Of a stretch of DNA of 64,000 nt, positions 50,487 to 55,228 are shown piece by piece. Where the stretch lies: NCBI GenBank assembly GCA_902560445.1, contig CACELO010000002.1, forward strand, positions 1-64,000, in the 5' to 3' direction. Position numbers and translations under genes: made by a program. The stretch comes from an uncultured Candidatus Poseidoniales archaeon (GTDB lineage: Archaea > Thermoplasmatota > Poseidoniia > Poseidoniales > Thalassarchaeaceae). The stretch's first letter is position 1. Each line of letters starts with the position of its first letter. Below the pieces are notes generated by a model. That model was not told where the DNA came from. It saw only the letters and a program-made list of their open reading frames with translations, and did not search any database.

Positions 50487-50900
50487 ATGGTTGAATTCGG
50501 GGTTTTCAGAAACCGAGAAAACTGGCTGGAAAGAAGTTGGCTATCACACCGGGTAGGAGATTTGTTCTATCTCTCTCACACCGCAGTCACACTTTGGTGC
50601 GCTGTACTTTGGTTAGGTCCGTATCAGTGGATGTGGTGGGGAGTTGTCATTCTGTACTCTGCCACAGAAATACTCTGGTTTTTCCGAGGTCGATTCTGTA
50701 TACTTTCAGATTTAGAAAGACACTTCAAAGGAATCCCGAGACCTGATGACCCATTAGACCAAAATTTTGTTCGAAGACTTTGGAATATATTGTTCCGAAT
50801 GGATATTTCATCCGAAACGGCACAGGTTTTGACTCGGATATGGGGCCGAATTGGTTTCACTGTTGCATTGGTCAGACTCTATTCATCTGGTGCCTTTTGA
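50487..50900 (+). CDS. Small membrane protein of unknown function
   Basis: 137 aa ORF with hydrophobic segments LFYLSHTAVTLWCAVLWLGPYQWMWWGVVILYSATEILWFF. Confidence 0.55.
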   Translation: MVEFGVFRNRENWLERSWLSHRVGDLFYLSHTAVTLWCAVLWLGPYQWMWWGVVILYSATEILWFFRGRFCILSDLERHFKGIPRPDDPLDQNFVRRLWNILFRMDISSETAQVLTRIWGRIGFTVALVRLYSSGAF

Positions 50901-50952
50901 GTCTGCCGTGCAGGCCGAAGGCAAAATGAATGAGTGGTGTACTCTCAAGAAC

Positions 50953-52103
50953 ATGGACGAGGAACTGAGCCAGGAGGAGAGGGCTAGATATGCGCGTCAT
51001 CTGATTCTTCCAGAGATGGGTGAAGAGGGCCAAAAGAAATTGAAAAAATCCTCTGTAATCGTTATTGGAGCCGGTGGATTAGGATCTCCTACTTTGCTAT
51101 ATTTGGCGGCAGCAGGTGTTGGTAAGATTGGAATAATCGACGATGATAGAGTAGACATAACTAATCTTCAAAGACAGGTTATTCATTCTACAGCGGCTGT
51201 TGGTTCGCTAAAAGTTGAGTCCGCCGCTAATCGTATTAGAGAATTAAATTCTGAAATTGAGATTGTTGAACATAACATCAGGTTAGATGTCAGTAACGCC
51301 TTGGAGTTACTTTCTGATTGGGACGTAGTAATAGATGGTACTGACAACTTCCCAACAAGATATACAATCAATGATGCATGTGAAATTCTAGGAACACCAT
51401 GGGTTTTTGGAAGCATTCATCGATTCGAAGGTCAGGTTACAGTTTTCAATTTTAACGACGGACCAAATTATCGAGATTTGTTTCCTAATGCACCCCCCCC
51501 CCTGAATTGGCTCCAAATTGCGCTGAGGCAGGAGTATTGGGGGTTTTGCCAGGAATAGTGGGTAGCGTTCAATCTGCTGAAGCAATCAAATTAATACTAG
51601 GCATTGGTGACTTGTTATCAGGTCAACTTATGGTGATTGATGCTAAATCTATGAAGACCCGTTCATTGCAATTTGACAAAATGCCTGAAAGAGAGAAAAT
51701 TACAGAAATGTCTGAACAATTGATAATGCAGGCTTGCCAAAGTCAAGAGGTTAGGGAAGAACCTCCTATTGGACATGTACTAGAGATAACTCCTGCAGAA
51801 TTTATCGAAAGGCGTTCTCAGGGTTGGAATCCTTTCCTTTTGGATGTTAGAAGGGAAAATGAGGCAGCAATCGTCAGTTTGCCCGGAACTGATTTACGGA
51901 TTGAACACATTAACGTTCCTGCAAAAGCAGAAGATTTGCCAAAGGATTGTGATTTGGTCATTTATTGTAGAAGCGGAGGTCGTTCGGATGCAGTCGCTAG
52001 ATGGTTAGGCCAGTCTGGATGGGACAGAGCTAGGGTTTGGAATATGGTTGGTGGCATTCACCTTTGGGCGGATCAGATAGATTCTGCAGTCCCAAAGTAT
52101 TGA
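50953..52103 (+). CDS. moeB: ThiF/MoeB-family adenylyltransferase with C-terminal rhodanese domain, frameshifted at a C10 tract (51493-51502)
   Basis: Frame 1: ARYARHLILPEMGEEGQKKLKKSSVIVIGAGGLGSPTLLYLAAAGVGKIGIIDDD...YRDLFPNAPPP. Frame 2 resumes PELAPNCAEAGVLGVLPGIVGSVQSAEAIKLILG... and rhodanese VIYCRSGGRSDAVA. Confidence 0.88.
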
Positions 52104-52113
52104 ATCCCCCTAT

Positions 52114-52310
52114 ATTGTGGTATAAATGCACTCTGTAAGTCGTTTAATTGTGGTATTAGAAGGAGATTTTATCGTTTTAACTAAAAACGTATGATATTTT
52201 TTTCTATTTATGGTATTTTTATTATCAGTATTGCTTTTAATTGTGGTTAATTATATTTAATTTTGACGAAAATAACGGCCTCAGAGATAGGCTCCCACTC
52301 ATATAGTGGT
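52114..52310 (+). promoter_or_regulatory. AT-rich intergenic region with five spaced TGGT-core elements (three ATTGTGGT)
   Basis: TGGT cores at 52118, 52151, 52211, 52244 and 52307 (spacings 33, 60, 33, 63). TTTAATTGTGGT occurs exactly at 52143-52154 and 52236-52247. Confidence 0.5.
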
Positions 52311-52366
52311 GTAATACTGATCCATACAGCGATTGTTTGTTGTACTAGTTGATACTAGGAGTAAGC

Positions 52367-55228
52367 GTGACAGGGCGACGAGGGATATGGCGTTGCCCTT
52401 CTTGCAACATACACCAGACCTGGAAATCGCGTGATCGAGGAACAACAAGATTAGATCGTAAGTGTACATCCTGCAACACTAGGATAAGAGTCACCCTAGA
52501 TCGTTCCGATAGTGGCAGAGGGAGGAAGCAACAAGCAGAGGTATGGGAGAGGTCATTTGACACTTCGATGCAGGAGTTACAAGATGAAGCGGATCTTCGA
52601 AATTCAGACGGAGTTGAACTAGACTCAGAGGACAAGAGCACTGGCCCTGTGAGTCAACTGGACTTACCTCCTCTTTGGGGAGGCGGGTGGAGACCGAAGC
52701 GACCTTTGGAGTTCTCCTCACCTTTACCGCAAGAAACTGCTAGAACAGAATTGATGAGATTTCTTGTTGAAAGGCACGACGGGTACACAGAGTCAGCTTT
52801 TGAATGTTGGAATTCACTCAATCCACCTGAACGATTTAATGGAAGAAGTTTTCATGAATTTAGTGAATCATTTTGTAACTCGTTTGAAAGAAGTTTAGCT
52901 GAAAGAGTATACGAACCGGGAGTGGCGACTCTTGCGAAACGAGAAATCATCCCTCGCAGAACAGGCAGTTCCTATCTAGATAGACGAGCAATACGCATGA
53001 TGAGGGATGTTGCCCTATGTCTACGTAGAATAGCACATACAGCCTCAATAAGTGTTGAAGACAGATTTCAATGGCAAAGATGGATGCACAGAACTCGTGC
53101 TTTAGATGAGCATCTGAAAGACTTGTTCATGGATGGAGTAACAACTCCTGATGGAAGTCAATTTGGGGGCAAGGGATTCCGCTCTACTTGGCAAGAAGGC
53201 GTAGTAGCATGCGCCACCTCAATGAGTAGAGCGATTGATCTCAGCGAAGATTCGATCGCTGATGCTGATGTAGTCGCCCCAATGATCAGAGATGTAGGTT
53301 TAGCACTATCGATGGGTCAGACGCCTCTAGAAATTTTCAACGCCCAAATGGGTAAGTCGAATTCCTACATGGATGGAGGAGTTGATTCAGCAGGAGGGAG
53401 GGATTTGCATGTCGGTAATTGGCACAAAAGAGTACTACCTCCTACTGCTCCACTACCAATAGCAAGTGCTACTGCTACCGGTGTTGCACTTGCGGCAAAT
53501 AGGCTTGCAAGACCTCGTTTTCACCTAGCACCGGTTGGTGAAGGTTGCAGTAGTAGCGGAGAATTTTGGGAAGCCATGAATCTAGCTGGTGCCAGAGGTC
53601 TACCAATTTCCTTTATGATTCAAAATAACCAGATCGCCCTTGATACTTTCACGACCGGGCAATCCGGCGCTGAAACCTTCGGAGACAAGGGTCATTCAAT
53701 GGGTATACCCACTTGGAGCATAGATGGTTCTGACCCCGCAGAATTTCATACATCGACCGCTGTTGCTCGTGAATTCGCCCTAGAGGGGGGTGGCCCGACT
53801 CTAATTCATGTTGAGACGATGCGAGGTTGTGGCCACGCACATCATCACGATGACCTGTACTTAGGGGCAGCAAGTGGGAACCCTCCTGGATACGTAGATA
53901 GGGAGTTGCTAACTTATTGGTCGGACAAAGACCCACTTCCTAACCATCGTGATTTATTGGTTAGATTAGGGGTAAGTGAAAGTAAACTTAGCAAAATGGA
54001 AGCAGAGGAGCAAGCATTGGTAGATGCAGCTCGAAAAGAAATGGAAGATACGGCATGGCCGGAAGGAAATTCGGTGACCAAGGGTGTGACTTCGTTTCAC
54101 GATGCCTCAACTCATTCAGAACAGTTCGACCGCTTTGGAGTGAGCCTTTCCGGAGGGGAGGGGCCAGTTCTTATCGGGGAGGTAGATATCGAATTCTCGG
54201 ATGCTGCGAACTCTTGGACATATAGCAAGGCAATACAGAATGGGATGGTAAGCCTTGCTGACAAATATGGAGATTCAATTGTCTTCATGGGAGAAGATAT
54301 GGAAGTAGCCGGAGCCTTTGGAATGAATCTGCCATTGAAAGCAAGAGGTCATTCGGACAAATTACTCGACATGCCTTTGTCTGAGGCGATTATCATACAT
54401 TCAGCAACGGGAGCAGCACTAGGTGGTATGCGACCTTTAGCAGAAATCCAGTTTGGAGGCTTTGCCGCTTTAGCGATGAATCCACTAATCAATAATGCAG
54501 CCCAACTCAGATGGAGATGGGGGGCCGAAGTTCCTCTGACTGTTCGAATACCACTAGGAGGAAAAACTCGGAGTGGGCCGTTCCATGCAAATATGATTGA
54601 ATCATGGTTTGCAAATGACCCTGGTTTGGTAATCGTATTTCCGTCTACGCCACAAGACGCTTACGACCTGTTGGTTGAGTCGCATGCCTTGAATGACCCA
54701 GTAGTATACCTTGAGCACATAGGACTCTATGGATTACGAGGAGGAAATACAGGGTGGGGACATTCAATTAACCAGATTGTTGACACTGATTCAGTTCATC
54801 AACGCCTTGCCTATGGTGAGAATAGCATAGGCAAGGCTAGAGTTGTGCGGGGCGGTAAGGATGTCACGATTGTAACTTGGGGAGCAATGGTCCATGTTGC
54901 ATTGGAAGCGGTTGAAGTGGCTGCAAAACGTGGTATTGAGGTAGAAATTGTTGATCTGCGGACAATATTGCCCTTCGACGCAAAAACCTGTATCGAGTCG
55001 GTTCGAAGAACCGGGCGTCTAATCGTTTTGCAAGAGTCTCAATACACCGGAGGGCTTGGACATACAGTTAGTAGCAGAATCCTAGAGGAGGCATTCTGGA
55101 ACCTAGAAAATGCACCAGTAGTAATCGGAGCACTAGACACTCCTGTTCCATTCTCCCCTCCGTTGGAAGACCACACTATCCCTACATCCGAGCTAGTGGT
55201 CAGACACATCAGGAGGATGTGTGAATGA
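52367..55228 (+). CDS. Zinc ribbon + fused E1 alpha/beta thiamine-dependent 2-oxoacid dehydrogenase
   Basis: N-terminal WRCPSCNIHQTW...RKCTSCNTRIRVTLDRS. E1-alpha-like RWMHRTRALDEHLKDLF...APVGEGCSSSGEFWEAMNLAGARGLPISFMIQNNQIAL; E1-beta-like FMGEDMEVAGAFG...PLSEAIIIHSATGAALGGMRPLAEIQFGGFA. ORF track begins at TTG 52349; GTG 52367 is plausible. Confidence 0.88.
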   Translation: MTGRRGIWRCPSCNIHQTWKSRDRGTTRLDRKCTSCNTRIRVTLDRSDSGRGRKQQAEVWERSFDTSMQELQDEADLRNSDGVELDSEDKSTGPVSQLDLPPLWGGGWRPKRPLEFSSPLPQETARTELMRFLVERHDGYTESAFECWNSLNPPERFNGRSFHEFSESFCNSFERSLAERVYEPGVATLAKREIIPRRTGSSYLDRRAIRMMRDVALCLRRIAHTASISVEDRFQWQRWMHRTRALDEHLKDLFMDGVTTPDGSQFGGKGFRSTWQEGVVACATSMSRAIDLSEDSIADADVVAPMIRDVGLALSMGQTPLEIFNAQMGKSNSYMDGGVDSAGGRDLHVGNWHKRVLPPTAPLPIASATATGVALAANRLARPRFHLAPVGEGCSSSGEFWEAMNLAGARGLPISFMIQNNQIALDTFTTGQSGAETFGDKGHSMGIPTWSIDGSDPAEFHTSTAVAREFALEGGGPTLIHVETMRGCGHAHHHDDLYLGAASGNPPGYVDRELLTYWSDKDPLPNHRDLLVRLGVSESKLSKMEAEEQALVDAARKEMEDTAWPEGNSVTKGVTSFHDASTHSEQFDRFGVSLSGGEGPVLIGEVDIEFSDAANSWTYSKAIQNGMVSLADKYGDSIVFMGEDMEVAGAFGMNLPLKARGHSDKLLDMPLSEAIIIHSATGAALGGMRPLAEIQFGGFAALAMNPLINNAAQLRWRWGAEVPLTVRIPLGGKTRSGPFHANMIESWFANDPGLVIVFPSTPQDAYDLLVESHALNDPVVYLEHIGLYGLRGGNTGWGHSINQIVDTDSVHQRLAYGENSIGKARVVRGGKDVTIVTWGAMVHVALEAVEVAAKRGIEVEIVDLRTILPFDAKTCIESVRRTGRLIVLQESQYTGGLGHTVSSRILEEAFWNLENAPVVIGALDTPVPFSPPLEDHTIPTSELVVRHIRRMCE

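Follow-up and report, generated by a model that had tools for sequence, protein, structure and literature searches.

A zinc ribbon fused to a 2-oxoacid dehydrogenase E1 in Marine Group IIb archaea, and a phased box array through which it may regulate its own gene

PutA is an example of the so-called trigger enzymes. The term trigger enzyme is that of Commichau and Stulke (2008), as cited in PMC3602430. A second described system of interest is the NrdR repressor, a tetramer that uses its Zn-ribbons to recognise a pair of boxes separated by about three turns of the helix and situated close to where the target gene starts (PMC9110341, PMC12051234). By analogy only, NrdR may be taken as the nearest mechanistic precedent for the locus described here, which belongs to a Marine Group IIb archaeon (Thalassarchaeaceae) and lies in a window (the whole stretch of DNA analysed) of 64,000 nt. 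The protein encoded at this locus joins an enzyme domain and a nucleic-acid-type domain in one chain, the binding of nucleic acid by the latter being predicted. Neither a zinc ribbon fused to an E1 nor an E1 in a trigger-enzyme arrangement was found in the searchable literature, outside which most subscription papers fall. The searchable genome and transcript papers on Marine Group II mention pyruvate dehydrogenase subunits and not a ribbon-fused E1.

Architecture of the fused E1

The open reading frame and limits proposed in a previous sequence-only reading of this DNA are correct. The same reading described an extension of about 200 residues ahead of the E1; such an extension exists, although it consists of three pieces: residues 1-62 are the ribbon, about 63-95 the linker, and about 96-256 a helical domain that runs on into E1-alpha. 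The features of the gene, in window positions, are the following:

52367-55228, plus strand: whole open reading frame, one reading frame of 953 aa with a GTG start, in the order ribbon, linker, helical domain, E1alpha, E1beta
52367-52552, plus strand: basic four-Cys zinc ribbon, residues 1-62, net charge +10, CPxC-x19-CxxC
52553-52651, plus strand: variable linker, residues 63-95, with a predicted helix at 68-81 and a low-confidence stretch at 84-94
52652-53071, plus strand: conserved helical domain, about residues 96-235, found order-wide with or without the ribbon
53072-54166, plus strand: E1alpha-like half, with the TPP motif GEG...NN and with RDVGLAL, CGH and the HAHHHDD loop conserved
54212-55225, plus strand: E1beta-like half, with the catalytic Glu in PLSE and the His in FHANMIE conserved

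The position of the start codon (Met/Val) is identical in every close relative, ATG replacing GTG there in most of them. Pfam places E1_dh at residues 289-563, Transket_pyr at 618-786 and Transketolase_C at 822-942, all above cut-offs, and thus the C-terminal two thirds correspond to an E1 whose alpha and beta halves are fused. On its sequence, the protein is assigned as a TPP-dependent 2-oxoacid dehydrogenase E1, and catalytic activity of this type is predicted for it. Across the aligned orthologues the Glu of PL(S/C)E, the FHANMIE motif and the His of the alpha-half CGH are invariant, and the TPP motif GDG-x(22-28)-NN reads GEG...NN in every one of them. The substitution of GEG for GDG (window 53537-53545, residues 391-393) is unusual among E1 enzymes, as is the HAHHHDD sequence at window 53837-53854 (about residues 491-496), in the usual phosphorylation-loop region.

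The nearest solved structures are the E1 subunits 1w85, from the pyruvate dehydrogenase of B. stearothermophilus, and 1um9, from T. thermophilus. The fused protein shares with these alpha2beta2-type enzymes the order of domains, the catalytic Glu and His, and the NN of the TPP motif. It differs from them in that the halves are joined, the motif reads GEG instead of GDG, the HAHHHDD loop is present, a helical domain and a zinc ribbon are added, and there is no dedicated E2.

The N-terminal region was modelled with AlphaFold (mean pLDDT 84.8) as a beta ribbon, with strands at 5-9, 16-20, 28-32, 39-43 and 58-62, followed by the helix at 68-81, the low-confidence stretch at 84-94 and a confident helical domain at about 120-256. 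The full-length model, built on an alignment of 17 sequences, gave a poor E1 core and was not used for fold searches. A helical domain of about 140 residues precedes E1alpha throughout the order (window 52652-53071 and orthologues), and no relative of it was found in Pfam, in PDB sequences or among PDB folds (best Foldseek E 0.5).

The four-Cys ribbon with its basic stretch, already pointed out in the sequence-only reading, is real. Its four Cys and 21 further positions, 25 in total, are invariant in 15 relatives from several genera, and its net charge averages +10.3 across ribbon-bearing sequences. Its codons are under purifying selection (dN up to about 0.2, dS mostly saturated), and in the same pairs of sequences the linker changes much faster (dN 0.2-0.8). 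This constraint contradicts a translation start lying only inside the chain, a possibility that the earlier reading had raised against its own proposal.

The domain search advised for the N-terminal region assigned neither the ribbon nor the helical domain to a family above cut-off; what it sustains is a four-Cys ribbon with weak and mixed matches. Profile searches of Pfam, NCBIfam and PDB gave nothing above cut-off for the ribbon, and its weak matches include RNA-binding, protein-binding and DNA-binding ribbons. The NrdR ribbon models match below cut-off (PF22811, best E 0.12; TIGR00244, best E 0.36), and hhalign aligned the ribbon to NrdR at 80% over 33 columns, a figure obtained with three NrdR sequences and no control set. 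With MJ0042 and the small CPxCG prokaryotic zinc ribbons it shares the fold class and weak sequence matches, but its conserved signature, LDR..C..C..R.R.T..RS..G.GR...WER, is much longer.

Origin of the ribbon and gene neighbourhood

The full-length enzyme spans the Poseidoniales (Marine Group II: Thalassarchaeaceae and Poseidoniaceae) and is absent from the rest of the phylum sampled, where only ordinary E1 alpha and beta occur. As to the source of the long E1, its 80 best genome matches are apparently all from Poseidoniales, including a record labelled Neomarinimicrobiota, and matches on plasmids are only about 30% identical. The ribbon is present in 72 of the 194 genomes of the order, nearly all of them in a single family, the Thalassarchaeaceae, the orthologues elsewhere in the order being devoid of it. 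In the E1 tree there is one gain of the ribbon (SH-aLRT 96) and no loss, with the frameshifted ribbon gene L131 grouped with the ribbon; the ribbon was acquired once, inside the Thalassarchaeaceae.

Two sequences depart from this distribution. The single strong ribbon match in the other family (G112, L068, contig G112:C27) has a ribbon and linker nearly identical to those of a g16 genome, and it likely reflects a misplaced contig or contamination. NZWI01000049 (L107), the record labelled Neomarinimicrobiota, groups within the ribbon clade.

A standalone ribbon gene in relatives, the other finding that the sequence-only reading held would count against it, was found neither in the genomes of the order nor in a phylum-wide profile search, which yielded generic ribbons elsewhere. 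A few weak standalone candidates were rejected, as they are antisense to other genes or overlap inside them.

The lack of an E2 or E3 gene next to the fused E1, also noted in that reading, was upheld when the genome was searched. The genome itself and 18 relatives have exactly one E2 each, and in the genome itself it lies at another locus, in a canonical pdh operon (lipA-E1a-E1b-E2-E3-lipB), where it accompanies the other E1. The fused E1 must therefore share that E2 or function without one, and sharing is presumed here. Ribbon-less orthologues likewise have the same single E2.

The neighbourhood is conserved across the Poseidoniales, with riboflavin genes, TrxB and a ThiF-rhodanese gene upstream and a Na/Ca exchanger downstream. 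In several relatives an acyl-CoA dehydrogenase gene lies downstream of the E1, which may feed that enzyme. In the window, the ThiF-rhodanese gene (50851-52103) appears as two overlapping open reading frames, in relatives as one of about 380-410 aa; the split, near 51507-51558, is probably a frameshift or an assembly error.

ThiF-rhodanese precedes the E1 in every one of the 62 ribbon-fused loci examined (62/62), and the interval between them, taken up to the ribbon's Trp codon, is roughly 170-300 nt. In ribbon-less relatives this interval is much shorter, and the preceding gene is a receiver-domain gene, a TVP38-like gene or another one. The receiver-domain (response-regulator-like) or TVP38-like gene is often directly upstream of the ribbon-less E1 (as at L069 5665-7514), and the ribbon clade has neither of them at that position any longer. 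The gain of the ribbon thus coincides with the loss of a closely spaced upstream gene and with a new gap of 170-300 nt, which places the appearance of the ribbon, of the array described below and of an independent promoter region on a single branch.

The upstream box array

The gap upstream of the E1 gene contains an array of boxes at 52114-52347, outside the span considered in the sequence-only reading:

52114-52123, plus strand: box 1, ATTGTGGTAT
52147-52156, plus strand: box 2, ATTGTGGTAT, 33 nt after box 1
52240-52249, plus strand: box 3, ATTGTGGTTA, 93 nt after box 2
52304-52314, plus strand: box 4, TAGTGGTGTAA, 63 nt after box 3, core to core
52337-52347, plus strand: box 5, start-proximal, TTGTTGTACTA within GCGATTGTTTGTTGTACTAG, 33 nt after box 4

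In most ribbon genera the core of the boxes is TTGTGGTA, and the spacings found across ribbon-fused genes are 33, 60-63, 93 and 126 nt. The start-proximal box, placed about 20-30 nt before the start codon, is the most conserved. The corresponding element, TTGT[TA]GTA[CT] within 160 nt upstream, is present for 62 of the 64 ribbon-fused genes; of the 44 sequences scored as ribbon-less, a set in which the frameshifted L131 is counted, not one has it (0/44). Within 420 nt upstream, 42 dereplicated ribbon-fused genes have a mean of 4.2 boxes (0.39 in shuffled sequence), against 0.39 for 33 ribbon-less genes (0.33 shuffled). We discarded a reading of the start-proximal box as a leader peptide, since its length differs out of frame from genus to genus (judged by eye).

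Pairwise distances between boxes peak at 33, 93, 126 and 189, and the boxes are in phase with the DNA helix: the mean cosine at 10.5 bp is 0.546, compared with -0.003 +/- 0.049 for random placement, a figure that is not a strict probability because box positions are inherited among relatives, though synonymous sites are mostly saturated. A motif-free self-match test gave lags of 33 (z 9.1), 93 (z 8.1) and 126 in the ribbon clade outside g14, and no such signal in ribbon-less genes. Orientation and spacing of the boxes vary between genera. One subclade (L116, L117, L120, L125 and L127) keeps the positions but has two of the boxes in inverted orientation (TACCACA), with TTGTAGTACTT as its last box.

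It might be thought that this is an ordinary E1 with a purely structural ribbon, the array being a lineage-specific core promoter, and the distance of one box from the start, at -84, would suit an archaeal core promoter. However, a core promoter would recur at many genes, and AATTGTGGTWAA occurs once in G000, at the E1 gene, and the start-proximal 20-mer has no second copy in the 1.1-Mb assembly when up to 3 mismatches are allowed; this explanation is considered very improbable. The idea that the element acts within the E1 mRNA, as an RNA or translational control signal that the ribbon reads as RNA, finds some basis in the location and conservation of the start-proximal box and in the existence of RNA binders among ribbons. 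Against it, the boxes span about 230 nt, their spacing tracks the 10.5-bp pitch of DNA, a search of Rfam with the upstream element gave no match, and boxes are inverted at a fixed position in some genera, which favours a DNA site over RNA or a core promoter. We regard it as improbable.

The main rival to reading by the ribbon is that another regulator, gained on the same branch as the ribbon, could read the array. In its broader form, a separate transcription factor encoded elsewhere (unlinked) uses the array as its operator, and the ribbon serves for something else, for instance tethering the E1 to E2 or another protein. Protein binding is common among zinc ribbons, a fused E1 devoid of its own E2 could well use a docking device, and the E2 linker beside the lipoyl domain is acidic, the ribbon being basic. 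Nevertheless, array and ribbon are present or absent together, and ribbon-less orthologues manage with the same single E2. Moreover, scans of 12 ribbon genomes revealed no second paired array that would mark the regulon of an unlinked factor: boxes paired 32-34 nt apart lie upstream of E1 in 5 of the 12 (G000, G011, G005, G048 and G041), and the other matches are scattered, at about the level of the reversed-pattern control, and look like chance. The change in genus g14 described next also speaks against this alternative, which we judge unlikely.

Genus g14 lies inside the ribbon clade and has its most diverged ribbon, in which R4, R22, T43 and E61, all invariant in the 15-sequence alignment (read by eye), are replaced. 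Its upstream gap contains no TTGTGGTA arrays. Instead, boxes with the consensus TTATGTWAA have their ATGT cores at about -216, -183, -150, -117, -84 and -50, on a 33-nt lattice, and the motif-free test on four dereplicated sequences gave lags of 33 (z 10.4), 66, 99 and 132. Thus, where the ribbon diverged, all boxes changed in concert and the lattice was kept, as is expected if the reader changes specificity.

Proposed autoregulation and known systems

Taking these data together, the following mechanism is proposed. A DNA-binding zinc ribbon would have been added to the N-terminus of the E1 through a flexible linker. In a dimer or larger oligomer of the enzyme, the ribbons would bind boxes that share one face of the helix, upstream of and near the start of the enzyme's own gene; these boxes are TTGTGGTA in most genera and TTATGTWAA in g14. 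Binding of the array would then regulate the E1 gene, with the substrate or the state of the complex as a possible signal. The ribbon itself may well be what reads the array, and repression appears likelier than activation because the last two boxes are close to the start. We consider it likely, from comparative sequence data, that the ribbon of the fused E1 reads the phased boxes and autoregulates its own gene, most likely as a repressor. That the E1 became its own transcription factor, ribbon and phased operator arising on the same branch and later switching specificity jointly in one genus, is held with moderate confidence; it would be the first such E1. It has to be noted that, as the gains of ribbon and array and the loss of the upstream gene fall on one branch, their co-occurrence counts as one event, g14 being the sole second data point.

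The regulatory or nucleic-acid-binding role imagined from the sequence alone is therefore backed, as regards DNA, by strong but indirect evidence, namely the phased upstream operator and the joint change of ribbon and boxes; the E2 tether offered beside it found no direct support. If the proposal is true, a transition from enzyme to regulator would be placed on one branch of a tree whose sister states are still living, and ribbon and box would constitute a natural series of protein-DNA co-evolution in a highly abundant group of uncultured marine archaea. A domain of 62 residues and short DNA would suffice to put the prediction to a direct test.

Like NrdR, the fused E1 has a basic CxxC...CxxC ribbon and paired boxes about three turns apart near the gene presumably regulated, and its 33-nt box pairs match NrdR-type pairing. 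Unlike NrdR, the ribbon sits on a metabolic enzyme, the sequence of the boxes is different, no ATP-cone follows the ribbon in the Pfam domain search, and the matches to other ribbon families are equally good or better. With trigger enzymes it shares the union of a metabolic enzyme and a DNA-binding-type domain in one chain and, putatively, the control of its own gene; it differs from them in being archaeal, in carrying a zinc ribbon on a 2-oxoacid dehydrogenase E1, and in having a long phased operator.
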